From Thioalkalivibrio sp. (GTDB lineage Bacteria > Pseudomonadota > Gammaproteobacteria > Ectothiorhodospirales > Ectothiorhodospiraceae), in the NCBI GenBank assembly GCA_011389655.1, contig JAABTX010000014.1, positions 1-43,656 of the forward strand: a DNA stretch of 43,656 nt, written 5' to 3'. Position 1 is the stretch's first letter; each line of letters opens with the position of its first letter. Made by a program: the position numbers and the translations under genes. Of this stretch, positions 742-37,769 are shown piece after piece. Under the pieces are notes generated by a model, which worked only from the letters and a program-made list of their open reading frames with translations, was not told the DNA's origin and did not search any database.

Positions 742-1560
742 TCACTCGGGCGGCGGCGCCTGTGGGTGGTGGCTTCGGGAGAACGGCAGGAATTGCAACA
801 CCACGAACACCAGCATCGCGGCCACCACGATGCTGGGTCCGGTCGGCGTGTCGTGACTGAATGACCCCCAGATACCCAGCAGCACGGCCAGCACCCCGAA
901 GCCGGCGGCCAGCAGACCCATCTCCTCGGGCGTACGCGCGAAGCGGCGTGCGGTGGCCGCCGGAATGATCATCAGCGCGGTGATCAGCAGCACGCCCACC
1001 ACCTGCATCGCGCTCGCGATCACCACGGCGATCAGCAGCATCAGCCCGAGCCGCACCGGCAGGACCGGCACGCCCTCCACGCGTGCGATCTCCTCATGCA
1101 CGGTGATGGCCAGCAGCGGGCGCCAGAGGATCGTCAGCAACACCAGCGCGAGCAGCCCGCCGATCGCGATCGCTGCAAGATCGCCGCGGGTCACCGCGAG
1201 AATGTCCCCGAAGAGATAGGCCATCAGGTCGACCCGCAGCCCCTCGACGAAGGCCACCGCTACCATCCCGAGCGACAGCGCGCTGTGCGCGAGGATGCCC
1301 AGCAGCGTGTCGGAGGCCAGTTCCTGGCGGCGCTGCAGGAAGACCAGGAGTACTGCCACCGTCACGCAGACCACGGTAACCAGCAGGTTGAGGTTCAGTC
1401 CGAGCAGGAATCCGAGGGCTACACCGAGCAGGGCCGAGTGCGACACCGTGTCCCCGAAATAGGCCATCCGCCGCCAGACCACAAAGGCCCCCAGCGGCCC
1501 CGCGACCACCGCCACCATCAGGCCGGCGAGGACCGCCCGGATCACGAAATCATCGAGCAT
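742..1560 (-). CDS. znuB: Zinc ABC transporter permease ZnuB
   Basis: A 272-residue integral membrane permease of the ABC-3 (metal ion) family that would move Zn2+ across the inner membrane in a ZnuABC complex. The protein is nearly all hydrophobic segments. It has the family's early WRRMAYFGDTVSHSALLG motif and a late SHDTPTGPSIV segment. Its start overlaps the end of znuC by 11 bases, indicating translational coupling. The tail contains SHH, which is not diagnostic. A manganese or iron substrate is possible for this family, but the His-rich ZnuA partner and the Zur-like site favour zinc. Confidence 0.93.
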   Translation of the reverse strand: MLDDFVIRAVLAGLMVAVVAGPLGAFVVWRRMAYFGDTVSHSALLGVALGFLLGLNLNLLVTVVCVTVAVLLVFLQRRQELASDTLLGILAHSALSLGMVAVAFVEGLRVDLMAYLFGDILAVTRGDLAAIAIGGLLALVLLTILWRPLLAITVHEEIARVEGVPVLPVRLGLMLLIAVVIASAMQVVGVLLITALMIIPAATARRFARTPEEMGLLAAGFGVLAVLLGIWGSFSHDTPTGPSIVVAAMLVFVVLQFLPFSRSHHPQAPPPE

Positions 1561-2365
1561 CGTCGCTGTTCTCCGTGGCCTCTCCGACCGGTTTCACCTC
1601 GCCGGTCAGGTCGTGGACATGGTTGTGGTGATGGGTGTACACGCCGATCCCGTGCAGCCCGGCATCGGGGAACAGCTGCTGGTACTCGGGGTGCCGGCTG
1701 ACCTCCTCCGGCCGGCCCGTACAGCAGACGTGCTGATTGATGCACATCACCACGTCGGCTGCGGCCATCACCAGGTGCAGTTCGTGCGACACCATCAGCA
1801 CACCGCAGCCCGTATCCCTGCGCAACCGGTCGATCAGGTTGAAGACCTCGCCCTGCCCCGCCACGTCGACACCCTGCGCCGGTTCGTCCAGCACCAGCAG
1901 GTCCGGTTCGCCTAGCAGTGCGCGGGCGAGCAGCACCCGCTGCATCTCCCCCCCGGAAAGGGTCTGGATCGGTGCGTCCAGCAGATGCGGCACCCCCACC
2001 TGCCGCAGGCCTTCGCGCAGGCGCGGCAGCGGGGCGCGATGCCGCAGGGTGAGGAAACGCCGCACCGACAGCGGCAGGATCGGGTCCACCTGGATCCGCT
2101 GCGGCATGTACCCGACCCGCAGACGCCGCCCCCGGTAAAGCTGCCCACTGGAAGGCTCCCAGAGACCGAGCAGCACGCGCAGCAGGCTGGTCTTGCCGGC
2201 TCCGTTGGGCCCGATGACCACCACGACCTGACCGCGGCGAATCGACAGGGACACGCCGTCAAGGATCGTGCGGCCATTGCGCACAAGTCCCAGATCGCTG
2301 GCCTCGATCAGGACCGGATCGGCCGTCCGGCCCCTGGCGCGTCTTTCACGGTTGGCTTCGGTCAT
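1550..2365 (-). CDS. znuC: Zinc ABC transporter ATPase ZnuC
   Basis: A 271-residue ABC ATPase that would energise ZnuB. Walker A is GPNGAGKT (about residues 52-59), the signature is LSGGEMQRVLLARAL, Walker B is LLVLDEP, and the H-loop is MVSHELH. The tail is His-rich (THHHNHVHD), as in many ZnuC proteins and perhaps metal-sensing. The ATG at 2365 was chosen over an in-frame ATG at 2425 because the longer version would run through the Zur-like palindrome. There is no Shine-Dalgarno sequence in front of 2365: the palindrome and a -10-like TATACT lie directly upstream, so the mRNA may be leaderless. It is the first gene of the znuCB unit. Confidence 0.93.
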   Translation of the reverse strand: MTEANRERRARGRTADPVLIEASDLGLVRNGRTILDGVSLSIRRGQVVVVIGPNGAGKTSLLRVLLGLWEPSSGQLYRGRRLRVGYMPQRIQVDPILPLSVRRFLTLRHRAPLPRLREGLRQVGVPHLLDAPIQTLSGGEMQRVLLARALLGEPDLLVLDEPAQGVDVAGQGEVFNLIDRLRRDTGCGVLMVSHELHLVMAAADVVMCINQHVCCTGRPEEVSRHPEYQQLFPDAGLHGIGVYTHHHNHVHDLTGEVKPVGEATENSDDAR

Positions 2366-2368
2366 TTC

Positions 2369-2381
2369 GATATAGTATAAC
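2369..2381. promoter_or_regulatory. Zur-like operator in the znuC/znuA divergent promoter
   Basis: The imperfect palindrome GATATAGTATAAC (one mismatched pair, centred on 2375) resembles the core of gammaproteobacterial Zur boxes (GTTATAnTATAAC). It sits four bases before the znuC start. It also contains -10-like hexamers on both strands: TATACT towards znuC and TATAGT towards znuA. Binding of Zn-Zur here could repress both transcription units. The palindrome is seen directly; Zur binding is inferred from sequence and gene context. Confidence 0.7.
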
Positions 2382-2450
2382 GTCCCTGCTGCAATCGTCG
2401 CACCCAAGGCTCCGGCCGTCCCCATCCCCGTTCAAGGAGACCCGACGCTC

Positions 2451-3512
2451 ATGCGGAACATCAAGTTCTTCGCCACTTCGCTCCTGCTCGGTGCCGCGCT
2501 GGTGGCTACACCGACGCAGGCTGAACCCCGTTCGGTGGTAGCGACCATTCTACCGGTCCACAGCCTCGTGGCGGGCCTCGTCGAGGGCATCCACGAGACC
2601 GAGCTCCTGCTGCCGACCACGGCCTCCCCCCACGGCTACGCAATGCGTCCGTCCGAGGCGCGCCTGCTGCAGGACGCGGATCTGGTGATCTGGGTCGGCC
2701 CCGAACTCGAGACCTTCCTGCGCCGTACCCTGGCGGAGCCACGAGAGGGCCGCCAGGTGATCAGCCTGCTGGAGGACCTGCACCTGCAAGAACTCCCGGG
2801 GCGGGAGGGAGGCGTCTGGGAAACGCATGGCCACGGGCACGACCACGGCCATGACGACGGCCATGAACCCCATCACGGCCACGATCACGCCCACGGGAAC
2901 GGGCCCGACGACGGTCACGATCACGGACATGACGACAGCCACGGACACGAGCATGGAAACGGGCATGACCACGGGAACGGGCACAGCGAGCCGGATACGC
3001 ATGTCTGGCTGTCCCCCGAGAACGCCCGCCGCATTGCCTCCGGCCTGACCGAAGAGCTCGCGCAGTGGGACCCGGAGCACGCCGAGGCCTATGCGCGCAA
3101 TCGGGACGCCCTGCTCGAGCGCATCGACGCGCTGGACGAGGAACTCGCCCGCCAACTGGAGCCGGTCCAGGATCGCCCGTTCCTCGTGTTCCATGACGCC
3201 TACCAGCACTTCGAACAGGCCTACGACCTGCATGCCGCCGGTTCCATTACCATCGATCCCGCGGTGCAACCGGGTGCCGGACGCATCGTGGAACTCCGTA
3301 ACCGGATGAGCGCCGACGACGTCGTCTGCCTCTTTACCGAGCCCCAGTTCCGACCGGCACTCGCACAGATGCTGGTCGAGGGTCACGCGACCCGTCTGGG
3401 CGAGCTGGATCCACTCGGGACCGACCTGGAGCCGGGTCCGGATGCCTGGTTCGACCTGATGCGCGGGCTCGCCGATGAGCTCGTCGCCTGTCTCGCGCCA
3501 CGGGAGGGCTGA
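2451..3512 (+). CDS. znuA: Zinc-binding periplasmic protein ZnuA
   Basis: A 353-residue cluster A-I solute-binding protein that captures Zn2+ in the periplasm for ZnuBC. The signal peptide covers about residues 1-24 (ending PTQA). Likely zinc ligands are H61 (SPHGYAM), H184 (DTHVWLSP) and H248 (FHDAYQHF). Between them, residues 125-178 form a very long His/Asp/Gly loop with more than 20 histidines, the charged loop typical of ZnuA and absent from Mn-specific homologues. AAGGAGA at 2434-2440 supports the ATG at 2451. It is divergent from znuCB across the Zur-like site. Only the length of the His loop is unusual. Confidence 0.96.
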   Translation: MRNIKFFATSLLLGAALVATPTQAEPRSVVATILPVHSLVAGLVEGIHETELLLPTTASPHGYAMRPSEARLLQDADLVIWVGPELETFLRRTLAEPREGRQVISLLEDLHLQELPGREGGVWETHGHGHDHGHDDGHEPHHGHDHAHGNGPDDGHDHGHDDSHGHEHGNGHDHGNGHSEPDTHVWLSPENARRIASGLTEELAQWDPEHAEAYARNRDALLERIDALDEELARQLEPVQDRPFLVFHDAYQHFEQAYDLHAAGSITIDPAVQPGAGRIVELRNRMSADDVVCLFTEPQFRPALAQMLVEGHATRLGELDPLGTDLEPGPDAWFDLMRGLADELVACLAPREG

Positions 3513-10760: not shown

Positions 10761-12022
10761 ATGCCCTCCCCTCTTCGCTCGGTGGCCGTGGGGGCTGTGC
10801 CGCCTTCCCGGGACTCGGCCGGCAACCCGCGCAGAATCCGCCGCGGCAGAGGCTGCAGGCCCATCGCCTGTTCCGCCCAGAGCTGGCGCAACGGGCCGAT
10901 CCGGTCGAGCAGCAGCATCCCCCTGCGCAGCGCCCGCGGCGCGAACCTCTCACCCACTGGCAGGCCACGCGCGAGGAGGTCCGTGACCGTGGCGACCCGG
11001 TCGATGTCGCCGCTACGCGCCTGCGCGTAGGCCGCGAGCACCTCGGGCGCCCCCGGGTCACGCGCGGTCAACACGCGCCCGGCAAGGATCGCCACGTCAC
11101 GCAGAGACAGGTTCAGACCCTGGCCCGCGACCGGGTGCAATCCATGCGCGGCATTCCCTGCCAGTACCAGCCGCTGGTCGTACAGGCGCCGCGCCCGCAC
11201 AAGCTCCAGCGGGAACCGCGCGGCGGGGCCGGCCGGGCGGAGCCGGCCGAGGCGCCAGCCGAACCGGGCCTGCAGCGCCGCAATGCGCTCGGAATCGGAA
11301 AGTGCGATCCGCTCATCGCAGGTCTCGGGCGGTGCGACCCACACCACATTGAGCCGGCCACCGGGCTGCGGCAGCAACGCCAGCGGACCCTCTGGCGTAA
11401 AACGCTCAAAGGCCCTGCCGCCGTGCGGCCGGGTGGACCGGACATCGAAGACCAGCGCGTCGGCCGCATACCGGCGCCGCCGCACCTCGATCCCCGCCGC
11501 CGCCCGGGTGGCCGATCCGGTGCCGTCGGCCGCCACGACGAGCCGGGCTGCAAGGCGATGGCGTCCGTCCGGGCCGGCGAGCACCACCTCGCGCCGCCCG
11601 TCCCCCGCCGCCTCGAGGGTCTCGAGCCGGGTCTGATCCAGACGCTCGACACCGGTTGCCGCCAGCGCTTCCGCCAACATCGCCCCGATGCGCGCGGCCG
11701 GCACCACCTGTCCCAGAGCGGAAACCCCCTGACTCGCGGCATCCATCACCACGCTCCCGAAACCGCCCTCACGACTCACGTGAACCGCGAGGATCGGCTC
11801 GGCCTCCGGTGCCAGCGGCTGCCAGTAGCCGACATCGTCGAGCAGGCGGACCGTACCGGCAGCGAGCGCGTACCCGCGCGCGTCCCCGTCGCCGGAGTCC
11901 GCCGCCCCGCGCTCGGCCAGCGCCACGTCGAGACCACCACGGGCCAGAAGGCAGGCCAGCAGGCCACCAACCGGCCCGCCGCCGACGATCACGACGTCGC
12001 AGTTGCGCCTGCGTGCCGTCAT
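10757..12022 (-). CDS. ubiH: 2-octaprenyl-6-methoxyphenol hydroxylase-like UbiH
   Basis: A 421-residue FAD monooxygenase homologous to its downstream neighbour. The dinucleotide motif is VVIVGGGPVGGLLACLLARG, and the second FAD motif is LVLAGNAAHGLHPVAGQGLN, with Asn in place of the usual Asp. The ATG at 12022 shares one base with the pepP stop codon. An open frame continues upstream but runs through pepP and is not coding. It acts at the membrane-associated ubiquinone complex (family knowledge). Assignment as UbiH rests on order pepP-ubiH-ubiI. Confidence 0.88.
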   Translation of the reverse strand: MTARRRNCDVVIVGGGPVGGLLACLLARGGLDVALAERGAADSGDGDARGYALAAGTVRLLDDVGYWQPLAPEAEPILAVHVSREGGFGSVVMDAASQGVSALGQVVPAARIGAMLAEALAATGVERLDQTRLETLEAAGDGRREVVLAGPDGRHRLAARLVVAADGTGSATRAAAGIEVRRRRYAADALVFDVRSTRPHGGRAFERFTPEGPLALLPQPGGRLNVVWVAPPETCDERIALSDSERIAALQARFGWRLGRLRPAGPAARFPLELVRARRLYDQRLVLAGNAAHGLHPVAGQGLNLSLRDVAILAGRVLTARDPGAPEVLAAYAQARSGDIDRVATVTDLLARGLPVGERFAPRALRRGMLLLDRIGPLRQLWAEQAMGLQPLPRRILRGLPAESREGGTAPTATERRGEGI

Positions 12023-29198: not shown

Positions 29199-29214
29199 TA
29201 CGCACTAGTGCGTA
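29199..29214. promoter_or_regulatory. Perfect 16-bp palindrome between gnd and tal
   Basis: TACGCACTAGTGCGTA is exactly self-complementary and lies in the 292-base divergent region. The half-site TACGCAC recurs at 29273-29279, 35 bases before tal. This is the size and placement of a dimeric repressor or activator site. The cognate regulator is not identified. Confidence 0.6.
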
Positions 29215-29307
29215 TGTGCGCGTTCGGGCCGCATCCGTACCGTGGTCCTGGAAGGTCCGCACGCTGCCCGAATACGCACGCCCATCACCATGGCCCGAGG
29301 AGAAATG

Positions 29308-30532: not shown

Positions 30533-32440
30533 TTACTCCGGGTGTCCCTGGACCAAGGCCGTGGCCGCGGCGCGCGCCGACGCTGGGCCGGCCTCGCGGC
30601 CGAGACTGCGCCATGTCCCTTCCAGCTCGGGCAGCAGTTCCAGGATGTCGGCATAGCGCTGGGCAAGGTACAGGCGTTCCATCAGTGACAGCAGCCCGGC
30701 CAGGCGCACGCCCGCAAGAGGCACATCCGCCAGGGCCGGACGCCGGGGCCCCACCTCTGCCAGGAGCCTGGAGAGCGTGTCGGGTTCCAGGGCCGCCAGC
30801 GGCCAGGCCGTGCCCACCGTTTCCAGACCCCAGCGCCCCCAGTGCAGGGCGATCACGTCGTCGCCCGCCGTGGCCAGCGTCCCCGGGTTCAACTGACGGT
30901 TCACGAACACCCACGGCAGGCTGCGCACCCGGTCCACGATGGCCTGGAAGTCTGCAAGCAGTTCATCGATGGTCTCGCGCGCGGTGACGTCGGCCACGAG
31001 TCGCGCGCGCTCGAACATCGCCCGGTCCAGGCGTTGCCAGAGCAACGGTCGCGAGCGCCCGTAGCGCCCGGCGAGCTCTTCGGGCGGTTCCACCGCGATC
31101 AGCGACCGCCGGAACCGGTACGCCAGTTCCGCAAGATCCGGGGCCGCCGATCCCTCTGGGGACGGCCCGGCCTCTCCTGGGTCCGGCGATCTCCCGGAAT
31201 CCGTCGACCCGGCACGATTCCCCGGGCCATCGTCGTCCTCCGGCGCCGGGTCCCGACGGGTGGCCACCTGCGCGGTTTCCTCGGGCAATCGCAGGACGTG
31301 GCAGTGAAGGCCGTCGACCAGAGTGGCGCCGATCCAGCCCGGGGCGGGCAGATCCGCAGGCGGATCCGCCAGCAGGCTCGCCTCGTGACGCGCCTCCCCG
31401 GACCGATGGGGGCCGAAGACCTTGACCAGGCGCGGTTCGGAGCCCTCCATCTCACAATGAATCGCCATCACGTCCGGCACCCGGGTCTGCCACCACTCGC
31501 TCCTGCGCACCCGTCCCGGAGCATCCTCCAGCTCCCGTAATACCCGCGGCAACCATTCCTCGCGCTCCGCCTCGGCCAGTAGCGCCCACAGGCCCTCTCC
31601 GCGACCCTGGCGGCGGCGCTGGAACACCTGATGGTGAAAGAAAAGGGCATCCAGGCGCGGCCTTTCGCGATTCAGGGAGACCAGGGAGGTCACCATCCCT
31701 GCCAGTCGATTCAGCATCTGCCGCGCCAGCAGCAGCGCGACGATCGCGGCGAGCAGACCCGGCGGATCGCGGTACAGATAGTCCGCGACCAGCCACACGA
31801 ACACCAGCAGGAAACCGAAGCCCGCGACTCCCGGAAGCCACGTCCTCGGTGGCGCGAGCACCTTACGGCGCAACCCGCCACTGAAGCGGCTTCCGAGCAC
31901 GACCAGCAGCGCGACCAGGGACAGGAACGCGATCATGAGGCCCAGGACCGAGGGGTACAGCACAGCCAGCACCGCCGTTCCAAGCAGCAGGAAGACCAGC
32001 CCCGCCGGGATCACCGCGTAGCGCCGGTAGGCCCGCGTGGCGATCCCGTCCTGGTCCTCGAAGAGCACGACCTTGCGGCTGCGCTCCAGAATCCTGCGCG
32101 CTCCCCGATCGGATCCGAAACGGATCAGTCGCTCCGCCAGCAGGTAGACCCCGAAGGCACCCACCGTCGCCAGCGTCAGGGCGACGATCAGCGTGTCCCG
32201 ATCAAATTCGGCGAGGGCCGCCGGGAAGTAGCGCGGGATCCGCTCGGACCCCAGCAGGATCACCACCTTCAGGGGCAGGAAGAAGGCCAGCAGCATCGCC
32301 AGCTGCGAGAGCACTGTGGCCAGCACCACCAGGCTCGTACCGCCCGGCGCCTCGCGCAGGAACCGGCCGCCAAGCTGCAGTGACCAGCGCAATCCTTCGC
32401 GGAAACGCGGAAGCAGCGGCGGGATTTCATTCTCGGGCAC
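30533..32440 (-). CDS. Membrane protein with ABC-exporter-like TM region and degenerate APH-type kinase domain
   Basis: A 635-residue protein without a name I recognise. Residues 35-245 hold about six membrane segments whose spacing resembles a type I ABC exporter membrane domain, but no ATPase follows. From about 320 the chain resembles an aminoglycoside-phosphotransferase/choline-kinase fold: an N-lobe-like RLVKVFG (K340), a Pro/Asp-rich insertion (about 395-435), FVNRQLNPGT (about 512-521), where active kinases have HGDLHPGN, and ALHWGRWG, where they have DWGRWG-like sequence. The catalytic Asp and the metal-binding Asp are both replaced, so it is probably a pseudokinase. GTG at 32440 was chosen because AAGGAG lies 11 bases upstream; GTG at 32452 is possible. 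It is 116 bases downstream of the RiPP operon. Confidence 0.7.
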   Translation of the reverse strand: MPENEIPPLLPRFREGLRWSLQLGGRFLREAPGGTSLVVLATVLSQLAMLLAFFLPLKVVILLGSERIPRYFPAALAEFDRDTLIVALTLATVGAFGVYLLAERLIRFGSDRGARRILERSRKVVLFEDQDGIATRAYRRYAVIPAGLVFLLLGTAVLAVLYPSVLGLMIAFLSLVALLVVLGSRFSGGLRRKVLAPPRTWLPGVAGFGFLLVFVWLVADYLYRDPPGLLAAIVALLLARQMLNRLAGMVTSLVSLNRERPRLDALFFHHQVFQRRRQGRGEGLWALLAEAEREEWLPRVLRELEDAPGRVRRSEWWQTRVPDVMAIHCEMEGSEPRLVKVFGPHRSGEARHEASLLADPPADLPAPGWIGATLVDGLHCHVLRLPEETAQVATRRDPAPEDDDGPGNRAGSTDSGRSPDPGEAGPSPEGSAAPDLAELAYRFRRSLIAVEPPEELAGRYGRSRPLLWQRLDRAMFERARLVADVTARETIDELLADFQAIVDRVRSLPWVFVNRQLNPGTLATAGDDVIALHWGRWGLETVGTAWPLAALEPDTLSRLLAEVGPRRPALADVPLAGVRLAGLLSLMERLYLAQRYADILELLPELEGTWRSLGREAGPASARAAATALVQGHPE

Positions 32441-32556
32441 GACGCTTGCCACTCCTTACGGTGTATCCGGAACGAAGCATGCGCCACTGGCCCCTGCCCG
32501 GGAACCCACCCCGGCGTCCGGATACCGCTTCCCGGTCCACGGGGGAGACCCGGCCC

Positions 32557-33336
32557 TCAATGCGCGGCCGTCGCCGTCTCCGGGGCCGACACCACCAGCA
32601 CGCCCAGCTCTTGAAAGCGCCTCAGCAGTCTCTCGCCCTGGCGACGCAGGGGCCCGTCCTGCTCGAGGCCGAAGTCATAGAGGGTGCGGTGCAGCTGATC
32701 GTCGCCGCTGCAGGGTTCCTCCTGGATACGCCAGAGCAGCCGGGCGCCCAGCGGATTCAGCACCGCAACGCGCACGCGCTTCGGCCCGGCACGGTATACC
32801 AGCAGGTAGGTCGGATCCGTGCCCGGGCGCTCGGGCCTGAAGTCCTCGCCGATACGGTGCACAGGAAACTCGTACGCGAGCAGACGGGCATCGGGAACCA
32901 GCGACGGGAAGCCCGATAACGGATCGACGGTCCGCTGCTCCCGACTTGGCGCGTCCCGGTCCGCTGCATTCAGCAGGCCCTTCTTCACCCGCTCGAAGTG
33001 CGCGAGTTCCGCGATGAACGGCCAGTCTTCCTGCCGCGGCGTCCGCTCCTCTGCCAGATAACGGACGAACTCCTCGCCGAACTGGGGGAAATACGGCGTA
33101 CGGGAATCGTGCTCACGATAGAAATCGCGTACCAGGCGGGGCCAAAGCTCGGGGCCCACTACCGCCTTCAGGACCGGGAACCCCTTGCCGAGAAGATTCA
33201 GCACGTTGTTGTAGAACAGGCGCCGATAGATCTCGAGCCTGCGCGGCTCGATGCCCGCGGGCGGCGGGAACTGCTCGGGATCGCGCAGATGATCGGCCAG
33301 GGCCTGCTGAACCCGCTGGAAGCCCGGATCAGGCAT
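32557..33336 (-). CDS. HvfC/BufC-like DUF2063 protein
   Basis: A 259-residue protein of the DUF2063 (HvfC/BufC N-terminal) family. The N-terminal domain has RRLEIYRRLFYNNVLNLLGKGFPVLKAVVG and the middle FPQFGEEFVRYL, both typical. In related systems it is the partner needed with the DUF692 enzyme to install oxazolone/thioamide groups on cysteines of the precursor (family knowledge). The ATG at 33336 overlaps the DUF692 gene by eight bases, so translation is coupled. Fourth gene of the operon doxX-precursor-DUF692-DUF2063. Confidence 0.85.
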   Translation of the reverse strand: MPDPGFQRVQQALADHLRDPEQFPPPAGIEPRRLEIYRRLFYNNVLNLLGKGFPVLKAVVGPELWPRLVRDFYREHDSRTPYFPQFGEEFVRYLAEERTPRQEDWPFIAELAHFERVKKGLLNAADRDAPSREQRTVDPLSGFPSLVPDARLLAYEFPVHRIGEDFRPERPGTDPTYLLVYRAGPKRVRVAVLNPLGARLLWRIQEEPCSGDDQLHRTLYDFGLEQDGPLRRQGERLLRRFQELGVLVVSAPETATAAH

Positions 33337-34234
33337 ATGCCACCTGTTGGCTTGAACGGCCTGTGGTGAGGTCGCCGGAGACCCGTTGCGCCTCTTCCTG
33401 CAGTCTCCGAATCCGGTCGACCTCCTGCAGGAGTTCTTCCAGGGGCGGAAAGTTGAAATCCCGCTCCAGCAGGGTCGGCACCGGCCCGAGGCGCTCGTAG
33501 GCCGCGGCCAGCAGGTCCCACGCCGCCGACCCGACCGGACGCCCGTGCGTGTCCACCCGCAGGTCCTCGGCCTCCTCCTCATGCCCGGCCAGGTGGATGT
33601 ACCGCGTGCGCTCCAGCGGCAGCGCATGGAGAAAGGTCACCGCGTCATAACGGTGGTTGATGCTGTTCACCACAATGTTGTTCACGTCCAGAAGCAGATC
33701 GCAGTCCGCCTCCTCCAGCACCGCTCGAATGAATGTCGCCTCGTCCAGCTCGCCACCCAGCGGTGCGTAATAGGACACGTTCTCCAGCGCCAGCCGCCGA
33801 CCCAGCACGTCCTGCACCTGCCGCACCCGGTCCGCCACATAATGCACCGCTTCCTCGGTGAAGGGGATCGGCATCAGGTCGTACAGATGTCCCCGCCCAT
33901 CGCCGCAGGCCGACAGGTGTTCGCTGTAGTCGTCGATCCCGTGGGTGTCCAGAAACGCACGCAACGCCCTCAGAAAATCCCAATCCAGTGGTCGTGGTCC
34001 GCCGATGTCCAGTGACAGACCGTGACAGACGAACGCATGGGCCTCGGTGTACGAGCGGAAGACCCGACCGAGCCGACCGCCCAGGTGCATCCAGTTCTCC
34101 GGCGCCGCCTCCAGAAAACCCAGGCGCTCCAGCGCCTGGGGCTCACGAGCGAACGGGCCCAGAAGGGCCCGCCGCAGTCCCAGCCCCGGCCCGCTCGCGC
34201 GGGCCGGGTGCGCCGGAGGCCGTTCCTCAGCCAC
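33329..34234 (-). CDS. DUF692 multinuclear iron enzyme (HvfB/BufB/MbnB-like)
   Basis: A 301-residue TIM-barrel enzyme. Candidate iron ligands match the family: H71 (CHGLS), H106 (SEHLSAC), E151 (ALENVSYY), D183 and N186 (LLDVNNIVVN), H194, H214, D228 and H230 (RVDTHGRPV), and E257 (LLERDFN). Such enzymes oxidise peptide cysteines to oxazolone/thioamide pairs. I place the start at GTG 34234, which overlaps the precursor stop by eight bases with GAAGGAA just upstream. An earlier in-frame ATG at 34336 would add a Lys/Ala-rich tail encoded inside the precursor gene and lying outside the conserved fold, so it is rejected. Confidence 0.9.
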   Translation of the reverse strand: MAEERPPAHPARASGPGLGLRRALLGPFAREPQALERLGFLEAAPENWMHLGGRLGRVFRSYTEAHAFVCHGLSLDIGGPRPLDWDFLRALRAFLDTHGIDDYSEHLSACGDGRGHLYDLMPIPFTEEAVHYVADRVRQVQDVLGRRLALENVSYYAPLGGELDEATFIRAVLEEADCDLLLDVNNIVVNSINHRYDAVTFLHALPLERTRYIHLAGHEEEAEDLRVDTHGRPVGSAAWDLLAAAYERLGPVPTLLERDFNFPPLEELLQEVDRIRRLQEEAQRVSGDLTTGRSSQQVAYA

Positions 34235-34520
34235 CGCAGGTTCCTTCACCGCAGCTGCCTTCTTCACCGCTGGTTTCTTCCTCACCGCCGCCTTCACCGC
34301 AGGTGCCTTCGCCGCAACTGCCCTCGTCACCGCCACCGTCGGCTTCGCCGCAGGTGCCCTCGCCGCAGGAGCCTTCTTCGGCCACCATCAGCGCCTCGTC
34401 CTGCGCGGTCATCGCCAGATCCGCCTCCAGATCCACCGCCGCAAACGCCGGGCTCGCCACCGTTGCGCCGGATGCACCCGCAGTCAAAATCGCCTTGCTG
34501 GAAAACAGTTCGTTCTTCAT
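34227..34520 (-). CDS. Cys-rich RiPP precursor, HvfA/BufA-like
   Basis: A 97-residue precursor peptide. A signal-peptide-like N terminus ends near PAFA (about residue 27). An acidic linker follows, then three copies of EGSCGEGTCG (cysteines 52/57, 69/74, 90/95) separated by Gly/Glu spacers. EGxCG is the modification motif of HvfA/bufferin metallophores. ETSGE at about 82-86 looks like an eroded further motif with Ser for Cys. AGAGGG lies ahead of the ATG at 34520. It sits directly upstream of, and overlapping, the DUF692 enzyme. Likely role: periplasmic binding of copper or another metal after modification (inference from family). Confidence 0.85.
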   Translation of the reverse strand: MKNELFSSKAILTAGASGATVASPAFAAVDLEADLAMTAQDEALMVAEEGSCGEGTCGEADGGGDEGSCGEGTCGEGGGEEETSGEEGSCGEGTCGG

Positions 34521-34600
34521 CGTCTAACCCTCTTCAGTTGGTCGTGCTTGATTTACGGGCCAGGCCCGTTCCATTGATGGCTGCTCGATGCAGCCCTGCC

Positions 34601-35212
34601 TCAACTACCCATCACCTTGCGACGGATGTAGTAGTCCACACTCAGATACCGGCCGGCGCCCCAGAAGAACAGTACCAGGAGCATTACGAAAAAGGTGGCC
34701 GCCATCTCGATGCCGTTGTTCACGACCGCAAAGTTGCCGGTCTCAGTCAGCCAGTTGTAGTTGCCGTGTTCCTGCAGGATCGACTTGGCCCGATCCAGGC
34801 GCATCTGCGCTTCCTCGATGCCGGAGCAGTTGAACAGGCACATCATCGGGTCGGAGATGCGCTGCCAGCCGTGCTCCAGGTGCACCGTGACCGCGGCCAC
34901 CACCATCGTGACCATCAGCGGGATCGAGAACCAGCGCGTGGCAAGTCCGATCAGCAATGCGATCGCTCCCAGCACCTCCGCATAGGCCGACAACAGGGCC
35001 ATCACAAACGGAAACGGCATCCCCAGGCCCCAGTCCGGATTACCGAACCAGGTCACGACACTCTCCTTGGGCAGCAAGCCATCCAGCTTGTTGGTTCCCG
35101 CCATCCAGAAGATCGGTGCCAGGTACAGCCGCAGCAGCAAGGGTGCCAGGAAATCCACCGCCCGTGTCATGTCCAGAAGCCTCTGGGCGCGTATCGCAAG
35201 TGCCGTCAGCAT
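34601..35212 (-). CDS. DoxX family membrane protein (HvfD/BufD-like)
   Basis: A 203-residue inner-membrane protein with four hydrophobic segments typical of DoxX proteins (LLLRLYLAPIFWMAGTNKL, VMALLSAYAEVLGAIALLIG, FSIPLMVTMVVAAVTVHL, AATFFVMLLVLFFWG). A hydrophilic region between the third and fourth holds CLFNCSG. AGAGGAA precedes the ATG at 35212, and the frame upstream of it is unlikely to be coding. DoxX proteins are the standard fourth component of HvfABCD/bufferin operons; their exact task is not settled. First gene of the operon, 80 bases before the precursor. Confidence 0.88.
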   Translation of the reverse strand: MLTALAIRAQRLLDMTRAVDFLAPLLLRLYLAPIFWMAGTNKLDGLLPKESVVTWFGNPDWGLGMPFPFVMALLSAYAEVLGAIALLIGLATRWFSIPLMVTMVVAAVTVHLEHGWQRISDPMMCLFNCSGIEEAQMRLDRAKSILQEHGNYNWLTETGNFAVVNNGIEMAATFFVMLLVLFFWGAGRYLSVDYYIRRKVMGS

Positions 35213-35420
35213 CGTTCGTTCCTCTTGTTCGTGGCCTTTGACTGCTAAGACTATGGCCGAGTCCAAGGCTTGGGCATACGGATCTTTACGTAACTTGAAG
35301 CTCCCCTCCACTCACCCGTCCGATTCCAGCGCCGGGGAAGATCGCCCCGGGGGTTGGCCTCCCACGGGGCCGGACCCGACCCCGGATCAAACCAGGGCCG
35401 GATCTGGACGGATTGGCCGA

Positions 35421-35795
35421 TCAACCGCTGACGCCCACCTCGTACCAGGGGGTCGGGTTGATCGGGCAGCGATAGCGGAAGCCTTCGCTGCTGATCTCGA
35501 CACGGCTCGACTTCGTCTCGCCGGGCTCCAGCGGAAACATGGTGAGTTGCTCGCGGCTCTCCAGGGACTGCACCTGGAATCCGGCGACCTTGCCCGCCTT
35601 GTTGGTAACCACGAACTCGTAGGTACCCGGCTCAAGGCCGGCAAGGGTCTCCTCCGCGGCGAAGTAGCCGTTGTACTGATCGAGGTGAATCGTGGTCACG
35701 CCGTCCTCGGTCACGGGCGTGCCGGCAAGGGCCATGCCGCTCAGCGTGAACGCCAGCATGCCCAGACCCAGCAGGCGGATGATTGGATTGTTCAT
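35421..35795 (-). CDS. Small secreted protein, cupredoxin-like fold suspected
   Basis: A 124-residue exported protein with a clear signal peptide (cleavage after about residue 24, GMALA). The mature part is beta-rich (TYEFVVTNKAGKVAGFQVQ, GETKSSRVEISSEGFRYRCP) and reminiscent of cupredoxin-like domains. It has only one cysteine and one histidine in the mature part, so a type 1 copper site is not evident. GAGGAGA precedes the ATG at 35795. It is 208 bases upstream of the doxX gene on the same strand. I suspect a link to the metal-handling operon but cannot show it. Confidence 0.7.
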   Translation of the reverse strand: MNNPIIRLLGLGMLAFTLSGMALAGTPVTEDGVTTIHLDQYNGYFAAEETLAGLEPGTYEFVVTNKAGKVAGFQVQSLESREQLTMFPLEPGETKSSRVEISSEGFRYRCPINPTPWYEVGVSG

Positions 35796-36049
35796 GATGT
35801 GTCTCCTCAGAGGATTTTTTTGCTTTAAGCGCCGCGCCTGCAGCGCAGGCTCGCGGTATGGATGGACTACCGGAATATCTATCAGAACACCTTCATAAAG
35901 ACCCCCATTCTTCTGAAAAACCAGGGAACCCGTCCGCATGCAGGGGCCAGTCATCACGAATACTCCGGCGCTGGAGAACGCCCTGCCGGTCACCACGCAA
36001 CGGGCCCACGCGTTCGCGCGCGCACGGGACTGCCGCCGGAATGGCGACC

Positions 36050-37594
36050 TCAGCTCGCGCAGCCGCCGGTGTTTCCGTCCAGAGGCCGCCAGCGATGACC
36101 GTTCCTTTCCAGTAACCGGTCCGCCGTGGGCGGGCCCTCGCTGCCCGCAGGATAGGAATCCGGCGGCTCGGACGGCGCCGCCGCCCAGGCCTCCTCGATT
36201 GGCGTGATCACCCGCCACTGGGCCTCGACCCCGTCACGGCGAGTGAACAGCGTGGCGTCGCCGCGCATTGCGTCGAGGAGCAGCGCCGAGTAGGCGGAGG
36301 CCGATGCGGCTCCGAAGGACTGCTGGTAGCAGAAGTCCATGGATACGGGAACGGTGCGGCGATCGGACCCCGGCTGCTTGGCCCCGAAGGCGAGACTGAT
36401 GCCCTCGTCCGGCTGCAGCCGAAGAACGATCACGTTGGATTCCAGCTCCTCGTCAGACGGAAACAGGGACAGGGGCGGTTGCCGGAAATGCACCGCGATC
36501 TCGGTCACGTGCCTCGCCAGACGCTTTCCCGTGCGCAGGTAGAACGGCACTCCCGCCCAGCGCCAGTTGTCGATGCGCAGGTCGAGCGCCGCGTAGGTCT
36601 CGGTGCGCGACTCCCGGGCCACACCGGACTCGTTGAGCCAGCCCGGCACCGGTTCGCCAGCAACCGTCCCGGGACCGTACTGCGCCCTGACCGTGTGCCG
36701 GCGGATCTCCTCGGGCGACATCGGGCGAATGGAGCGCCACACCTCGATCTTCTTGTCGCGCACCGCGTCGGCATCGAACGCGACCGGGGCCTCCATCGCG
36801 GTGAGCGCCAGCAACTGCATCAGATGGTTGGCGACCATGTCGCGCAGGGCACCGGACTCCTCGTAGTAGCCCGCGCGATGACCCACGCCCAGCGGCTCGG
36901 CCGCGGTGATCTCGACGTACTCGACGTGGTTGCGGTTCCAGACCGGCTCGAACAGCGCGTTCCCGAAACGGAAGAACAGGATGTTCTGGACGGTCTCCTT
37001 TCCGAGGTAGTGGTCGATCCGGTAGACCTGGTGCTCTCCGAAGCCCTCCGCCACCGCCGCGTTAAGGGCCTGCGCCGTGGCCAGGTCGCTCCCGAAGGGC
37101 TTCTCCAGGACGATCCGCGTCCAGCCGCGCTCCTCCCTGCTCAAGCCCGCCGCGGCGAGGCGTTCGATGATGCCCGGTGCGGTGCTCGGCGGAGTGGCCA
37201 GGTAGAACAGGCGATTCCCGAGGCTGGACCCGTCGAGGACCGCGGAAAGCCGCTCGTGTGTCTCCGCCTGCAGAAAATCCCCGTGGAGCCAGGAAAGGCG
37301 CTGCGCGAAGCCCGTCCAGTCCGCCTCATCGTCCGAGGCCTCGCGGAGCAGGGCACGATAGTCCTCGTCGCCCATCTTCTCGATGCCGACTCCGAGGATC
37401 CGGAATCCCGGCGGCAGATGGCCGGAACGGTCCAGCTGGGCAAGCGCGGGAATCAGCTTGCGTCGCGCGAGATCCCCGGCGCCGCCGAAGATCACCAGCA
37501 CACAGGCATCCACGGCCGACGGATCCAGGGCATCCTGCGGCATGCCCGAGCGTTCCCCGGTAACCGGAAGCGACTGCGTCGTGCTGCTGTCCAT
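36050..37594 (-). CDS. zwf: Glucose-6-phosphate dehydrogenase
   Basis: A 514-residue enzyme that oxidises glucose-6-phosphate to 6-phosphogluconolactone. The coenzyme motif is [18 protein letters not shown], and the substrate motif is [13 protein letters not shown] with the catalytic His region intact. The C-terminal half carries [19 protein letters not shown]. The start at 37594 gives a short N-terminal tail before the fold; an internal ATG at 37543 is possible. It runs in the same direction as gnd but 7 kb upstream, with the RiPP cluster between. The 254-base space downstream (35796-36049) shows no other gene. Confidence 0.95.
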
Positions 37595-37769
37595 GATCAG
37601 ACTCCACGTGAACGTGGTGGACAGTTAAACAGTCGCGAAGCGGCGGCAACATACGTGGGAATCCGTAGCGCCAGCCCGGGGCGAGCATCGCGCCGCACCC
37701 TCGTGCTCGCAGTCCTCGGGGATCATGTTCAGTCCCAGGCCGTCGGCGAAGCGGTTCATCGGCGACCCC

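Follow-up and report, generated by a model that had tools for sequence, protein, structure and literature searches.

The window analysed here, a stretch of 43,656 nucleotides from Thioalkalivibrio sp. (contig JAABTX010000014.1, positions 1 to 43,656), carries on its minus strand, from 35212 to 32557, a four-gene operon, hvfXABC, that is real and of the described Hvf/captophorin kind. Judging from sequence, we consider it, with a probability of about 0.88, to be a captophorin (oxazolin/Buf_EGKCG) operon, in which HvfBC would turn up to six cysteines of the precursor HvfA into 5-thiooxazoles and thereby give rise to an exported copper-buffering peptide. The gene of an HvfB-family MNIO adjoins that of an HvfC-family DUF2063 partner, and a Cys-rich repeat precursor is encoded directly upstream of the MNIO gene. 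An earlier note on this DNA had described four coupled or closely spaced minus-strand genes at 32557..35212, and this layout was borne out by the open reading frames, all four of which lie within that span: the start of hvfB overlaps the stop of hvfA by 8 nt, as does the start of hvfC the stop of hvfB, and a gap of 80 nt separates hvfX from hvfA.

Family assignment was based on searches of the window proteins against NCBIfam models, with their curated cut-offs, and against Pfam profiles, and HvfX, HvfB and HvfC each scored above the cut-off of their own NCBIfam model. The first gene, hvfX (34601..35212, minus strand, ATG at 35212, stop at 34601), encodes a DoxX-like membrane protein of 203 aa (NF050144, 233.9 bits against a cut-off of 80; PF07681); the DoxX gene had been correctly recognised in the note as part of the operon, there labelled HvfABCD, and its name in the literature is hvfX. 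It is followed by hvfA (34227..34520, minus strand, ATG at 34520, stop at 34227), coding for the 97-aa precursor, by hvfB (33329..34234, minus strand, GTG start at 34234, stop at 33329), coding for the MNIO (DUF692) peptide-modifying enzyme (NF003818, 402.6 bits against 360; PF05114), and by hvfC (32557..33336, minus strand, ATG at 33336, stop at 32557), coding for the DUF2063 partner protein of the PME1/RRE type (NF050145, 241.7 bits against 142; PF09836 and PF22106). Both HvfB and HvfC have solved relatives, HvfB in PDB 3bww (E 5.2e-67) and HvfC in PDB 3dee (E 2.7e-5). The enzyme stayed below the cut-offs of all of the BufB (NF050167, 247.3 against 310), MbnB (TIGR04159, 55.7 against 325), ApyH and ChrH models. 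Being above the HvfB cut-off and below those of BufB and MbnB, it justifies the designation Hvf-type, while the second half of the proposed label, bufferin-type, is right in a broad sense only and fails in the strict one. By the same scores, the DUF692 protein falls into the group acting on ribosomally synthesized and post-translationally modified peptides (RiPPs), as the note had supposed, and not among the non-RiPP members. A GTG at 34336, which would give an hvfB product of 335 aa and an overlap with the precursor gene, was discarded as a start, since relatives show similarity only from about the hvfA stop onwards.

The precursor HvfA consists of a signal-peptide-like N-terminus (MKNELFSSK...SPAFA/A, recognised by eye only and similar in congeners) and three EGSCGEGTCG modules. 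It has exactly six cysteines, each in an EG[S/T]CG motif and preceded in order by S, T, S, T, S and T, so that none of the six sites carries the Lys of a strict EGKCG motif. From first Cys to first Cys, modules 1 and 2 are 17 residues apart and modules 2 and 3 are 21 apart, the second unit being four residues longer; the 17-residue two-motif repeat of the Buf_EGKCG type is therefore present, with spacings of 17 and then 21, and two sites per 17-residue unit fit the type as published (PMC12452194). HvfA scored 22.7 bits against the two-site domain model NF050137, above its cut-off of 19.5. Past the presumed cleavage site the peptide comprises 70 aa with no Lys, Arg or His and 20 Asp or Glu, and its computed isoelectric point (pI) is 4.05. 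A like precursor also stands before hvfB in congeneric genomes.

At the level of the enzyme, HvfB of the window agrees with the family at every one of the 51 columns whose conservation in 215 other rows is 98.5% or higher, 24 of these columns being polar, and its residues R21, R22, D259 and F260 are, by motif, the counterparts of Arg15/Arg16, Asp249 and Phe250, substrate-contacting and catalytic residues of FonB (PMC13097082). HvfBC, FonBC and MmrBC have been reported to act on the cysteines in EGKCG repeats, removing 4 H for each Cys modified (PMC13097082, PMC12538549, PMC13419390), the products of HvfBC and FonBC having been assigned as 5-thiooxazoles (PMC13097082, PMC13419390); HvfB requires its partner HvfC, and the products bind copper (PMC13097082, PMC12538549, PMC13419390). 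FonBC moreover tolerates Ala and Thr before Cys, Ser not being among the variants named (PMC13097082). Since the family residues are kept in HvfB and FonBC accepts Thr and Ala, six thiooxazoles would be expected. In the proposed mechanism, HvfC would recognise HvfA together with HvfB in the cytoplasm, and HvfB, a multi-iron oxidase, would carry out a four-electron oxidation of the Cys at all six EG[S/T]CG sites, the presumed product at each site being a 5-thiooxazole fused with the Ser or Thr ahead of it, with a loss of 4 H per site and 24 H in total. The peptide would be exported by the Sec machinery and its signal sequence removed, and the mature form, rich in thiols and polyanionic, may buffer soft metal ions in the periplasm or outside, copper being the likeliest of them, with HvfX presumably assisting in the membrane.

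Oxazolin of Haemophilus influenzae, encoded by hvfABC(X), shares with the window operon the four gene kinds, the three tandem two-Cys modules, the six cysteines and, if the N-terminus of the window HvfA is one, the signal peptide, but its sites are EGKCG and those of the window HvfA are EG[S/T]CG (PMC13419390). The three EGSCGEGTCG modules with six cysteines and Ser or Thr before each of them, as described in the note, are present, yet the number of modules does not set this precursor apart, because HvfA of H. influenzae likewise has three modules and six Cys (PMC13419390). Fontiphorin (fonABC) has the EGxCG repeats in common with our system, as well as the Arg-Arg pair near the N-terminus of the MNIO and its Asp-Phe; it has seven Lys-type sites, and its cluster consists of the precursor, MNIO and PME1 genes with no DoxX gene, unlike the window operon (PMC13097082). 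Bulbicupramide (mmrABC) also has three two-Cys cassettes, and a loss of 24 H was shown there on co-expression; it carries Lys before Cys, whereas the window HvfA has no basic residue past the presumed cleavage site (PMC12538549). The bufferins Buf1/Buf2 (PMC12452194) and the gigPABT system (PMC10304878) share the MNIO, DUF2063 and DoxX genes and are copper-related, but they have precursors of other families, and the window enzyme falls short of the BufB cut-off. More than 24,000 MNIO-PME1 loci have been reported (PMC13097082).

The absence of Lys was followed through a survey of 226 loci with 218 distinct HvfB sequences, drawn from the best 80 of at least 559 named loci, from 122 non-congeneric places in 370 genomes of the class (118 matched), and from hits in the order and the genus, some genomes being in more than one set. 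A precursor rich in Cys-Gly (CG) was found upstream in 153 loci, two of which (L050 and L215) were dropped by eye as spurious, having no repeat and a chance reading frame, which left 151; both are still contained in the guanine-plus-cytosine (GC) and charge medians of the first survey, the GC median being the same without them. Among the 151 precursors, the window not counted, 80 have only Lys or Arg (K/R) before CG, 53 are mixed and 18 are K/R-free, and in the class draw alone (120 loci after removal of two duplicates of named loci) the numbers were 46 all-K/R, 33 mixed and 2 K/R-free, with 38 loci having no precursor and 1 a spurious one. At 1067 sites, the residue before CG was Lys in 800 cases, Ser in 120, Thr in 48, Ala in 29, Arg in 24, Gln in 21 and Asn in 18, Ser, Thr or Ala together accounting for 197, and for 102 of the 955 sites outside the window's group of genomes. 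The difference from the Haemophilus-type EGKCG motif to which the note had pointed is real, but Ser, Thr or Ala in the position before Cys recurs across the family as a minority state.

The window's clade accounts for 13 of the 18 K/R-free loci, including L260, whose genome is that of a different genus of the family; the other five are L045 and L047 (both Wenzhouxiangellaceae by title), L048, L183 and L198, all placed elsewhere. In a quick maximum-likelihood tree of HvfB, for which no root was inferred and in which 37 of 146 inner branches were starred, the window clusters with 12 K/R-free rows in a starred group of 13, itself nested in a starred group of 18. The latter further contains four Thioalkalivibrio loci in which K/R is partly present (L027, L277, L278 and L280) and the all-Lys Algiphilus locus L042, the branch uniting the four with the 13 reaching 94, just under a star. 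This arrangement fits a stepwise loss of Lys and Arg within the window's group; taking the tree in its entirety, five changes of the K/R-free label are required, two of which are forced by starred branches. Within the K/R-free clade, only S, T, A or N is found before CG. The median computed pI of the core region is 4.05 in K/R-free precursors against 8.65 in all-K/R ones, and a core without any Lys or Arg was found, besides the window, in only two of the 151 (L025 and the truncated L104). The complete loss of Lys, Arg and His from the predicted mature peptide is new in degree. Papers containing EGSCG or EGTCG included no title on MNIO peptides, supplementary tables, in which Lys-free motifs may well be present, lying outside that search; the main text of PMC13097082 contains neither EGSCG nor EGTCG, and that of PMC12452194 neither EGSCG nor Thioalkalivibrio, supplementary tables again not being covered. 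Among the matches listed, none of those combining at least two of the terms Thioalkalivibrio, MNIO, DUF692, bufferin and captophorin mentions Thioalkalivibrio. Since Lys has been lost naturally and in full while the enzyme residues were kept, it would seem to be dispensable, provided that the product is made, and this one group offers natural variants (sites STSTST, STSRKR and SRSRSRKR) for probing the role of Lys in modification, copper affinity and aggregation. The names of some of the organisms concerned hint at a link of the loss to soda or salt lakes as habitats. Members of the genus Thioalkalivibrio are described as haloalkaliphilic and as coming from soda lakes with a pH above 9 (PMC6382920), and the species of the window is presumably haloalkaliphilic as well. 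As a side observation, Phe occupies position 262 of HvfB, two residues past the counterpart of the substrate-contacting Phe of FonB, in 16 of 18 K/R-free rows and in 5 of 84 all-K/R rows; a tree-aware sign test of this association gave a median p of 1, with only 3 independent pairs on starred branches.

Several observations weigh against the captophorin interpretation. HvfA reached 31.4 bits with the full-length HvfA model NF050188, under its cut-off of 95, and its leader has diverged, with D-L after the cleavage region where 17 other aligned rows have G-Y or G-F. In 65 of the 218 distinct HvfB loci no CG-rich precursor was found upstream, so the presence of HvfB alone is no proof of this substrate, and the operator-like palindrome that precedes hvfX in the window, described below as the TACG box, is lacking before hvfX in ten aligned congeneric loci (L267-L276). 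A decaying Lys-free precursor, unmodified or dispensable and with drifting motifs, would agree with the TSGE in the spacer before the third module, which reads like a site with Ser for Cys, with a Cys number ranging from 5 to 8 among aligned congeneric precursors, and with the lack of an HvfB match in nine of the 30 congeneric genomes (six of the 23 good ones). Yet none of the six motifs is broken, hvfB and hvfC are likewise intact and the genes overlap, and the restriction to S, T, A or N before CG throughout the K/R-free clade also speaks against drift, making decay a quite improbable explanation.

That the Lys residues were lost passively, through high GC content or a general acidification of proteins, would agree with the median GC of 0.650 in K/R-free loci against 0.564 in all-K/R loci; outside the window's group, however, the K/R share is correlated neither with GC (rho -0.009, p 0.92, n=132) nor with local protein charge (rho 0.004, p 0.96, n=132), and we regard this account as unlikely, if the least unlikely of the alternatives. 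A true bufferin system, with a BufA1 (DUF2282) or a BufA2 (6/12-Cys) precursor served by BufB, would comprise the same four gene kinds, and the enzyme does match the BufB model, but below its cut-off; the precursor has no Pfam match at E 0.1 and therefore no DUF2282, and its cysteines lie in EG[S/T]CG repeats, which leaves very little room for such an assignment. Scarcely any likelihood attaches to a methanobactin-like chemistry (oxazolone-thioamide) serving copper uptake, for which the common superfamily and the weak match to the MbnB model could be adduced: that match is far under the cut-off, the partner is of the HvfC type, and oxazolin, formerly described in such terms, has been reassigned to 5-thiooxazole (PMC13097082, PMC13419390).

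The TACG box, TACGGATCTTTACGTA, is an operator-like palindrome at 35277..35292, 65-80 nt upstream of the hvfX ATG. The underlying pattern TACG-N8-CGTA was first noticed when aligned upstream regions were read for inverted repeats, and a subsequent scan gave four occurrences in the window, where shuffled sequences lead one to expect 0.09. A second TACG box, TACGGATTCCCACGTA on the minus strand, lies at 37652..37667, 58-73 nt upstream of zwf, and a perfect palindrome, TACGCACTAGTGCGTA, at 29199..29214 upstream of a transaldolase gene (start at 29242 or 29305), is a weaker candidate; its spacer is unlike the consensus of the hvf and zwf sites and it was missed by both whole-genome consensus searches, but it is possibly the same or a related operator. 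The fourth occurrence, at 11014, is inside a ubiquinone-hydroxylase-like gene and was set aside. In the window's own genome of 3.46 Mb, in which the window is contig 24, TACGGATTCTTACGTA with up to two mismatches was found at two sites only, those before hvf and zwf, the reversed control giving 0. A 16-bp consensus, TACGRATYYHYACGTA, built from the hvf and zwf sites of the window and the hvf sites of L025, L277, L278 and L279, gave 8 sites in 30 congeneric genomes and 0 for its reversed control: five before hvfX (G000, G002, G003, G004 and G018), two before zwf (G000 and G027) and one before a gene for a cupredoxin-like protein (G025), where the promoter stretch nearly equals that of zwf in the window. 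Re-finding the sites from which the consensus was built is expected, and what is informative is the near absence of other sites in the genus together with the sites of G025 and G027, which were not part of it.

Outside the genus, 7 sites were found beyond the window's own two in the 370 genomes of the class (367 of them non-congeneric), against 7 for the reversed control, and a tblastn search of the loci fetched around these 7 sites found no zwf, hvfX, hvfB, hvfC, tal or cupredoxin-like gene; these sites are therefore taken as background. In the 350 bases surrounding the first gene's start, 159 loci together contained the loose pattern 8 times, where its density would predict 0.74 occurrences. 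Four of these 8 hits are two loci counted twice and two of the remainder (L072 and L244) are outside the genus, and since the motif was moreover first seen in these loci, the enrichment is no independent test. The ten congeneric loci lacking the box share instead a conserved block around GGACGATCGGACATAAATGCC, with variants, upstream of hvfX, which suggests a turnover of promoters within the genus.

The distribution of these sites makes it probable that one regulator serves hvf, zwf and the cupredoxin-like gene, and a control site common to hvf and zwf fits control by stress; their co-regulation might form part of a response to metal or redox stress of the envelope. The box makes the control of the hvf operon directly testable and ties hvf to zwf, and this narrow operator-like site, by which hvf is connected with zwf and the cupredoxin-like gene, is in our view a more useful result than the loss of Lys. 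Rather doubtful, and put forward tentatively, is the further idea of a tiny dedicated regulon, in which one regulator, acting at the TACG boxes before hvfXABC and zwf-cupredoxin, would couple a lysine-free thiooxazole peptide to NADPH supply and an atypical cupredoxin as a defence module of the envelope against metal and redox stress; if true, the polyanionic peptide might stay soluble when metal-loaded at high pH and salt.

Both proposed partners are encoded on the minus strand upstream of hvfX. The glucose-6-phosphate dehydrogenase gene zwf occupies 36050..37594 (TIGR00871, 595.5 against a cut-off of 400.6), and between it and hvfX, at 35421..35795, lies the gene of a small, exported-looking protein of 124 aa, called cupredoxin-like for its predicted fold and proposed as co-regulated for the TACG box before its G025 orthologue. 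This protein matched no Pfam or NCBIfam family, the NCBIfam search covering 104 of its residues. Its AlphaFold2 model reached a pLDDT of 82.8, and Foldseek placed cupredoxin-fold chains among the best matches of the model (best E 1.3e-4, TMq 0.59), including a soluble CuA model, EfeO, small laccases and FtrB. His37 and Cys110 are among the residues invariant in nine sequences, but a full type-1 copper site is not evident by eye. The gene was found in 10 of the 30 congeneric genomes, in G003 as a short terminal match only; it follows zwf in G000, G027 and probably G019, and zwf was not seen in the cupredoxin-like loci fetched from G006, G015, G016, G022 and G025. The short match of G003 is about 1.2 kb from hvfC, and the copy of G002 is, by coordinates, about 2.6 kb from hvfB.

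As for further promoter elements, a scan of 32300-35800 with the sigma-70 consensus found no site, and the upstream alignment of congeneric loci suggests TAGTCT at 35248..35253 on the minus strand (TAGGCT in the nearest relative) as a candidate -10 element. A terminator-like hairpin with a T run early in hvfB (34140-34119, minus strand) was rejected as an attenuator; its stem is not visibly kept perfectly in the relatives shown, and shuffles lead one to expect 2.2 such sites in the stretch.

HvfX displays a C-x3-C loop (MCLFNC) at residues 125-129, which was found in 27 of 118 HvfX rows including that of the window, with both gene orders and with Lys-type as well as Lys-free precursors, and which is a possible metal- or thiol-handling site. 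The gene-order counts were made automatically, and in at least one case, L026, an open reading frame with too early a start led to a miscall; no conclusion rests on them. An HvfB match was found in 21 of the 30 congeneric genomes, the window's own included, and in 17 of the 23 good ones; two of the 21, G025 and G026, are represented by a distant homologue alone (35% identity), and G019 carries such a homologue in addition to its own HvfB. Within the best 80 named loci, the nearest named HvfB relative is that of the Thioalkalivibrio metagenome-assembled genome B1Sed10_11R1, with 91% identity. The zinc uptake genes znuB, znuC and znuA lie at 742-3512 of the window, about 30 kb away and with no link to hvf seen, ZnuB and ZnuA scoring above their cut-offs and ZnuC just under (300.5 against 306). 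In a plasmid collection, 352 of 72,556 records matched HvfB at E up to 1e-5, with 60% identity at best, and 129 of the matching records are typed as conjugative, a few of those listed being chromosome-sized.

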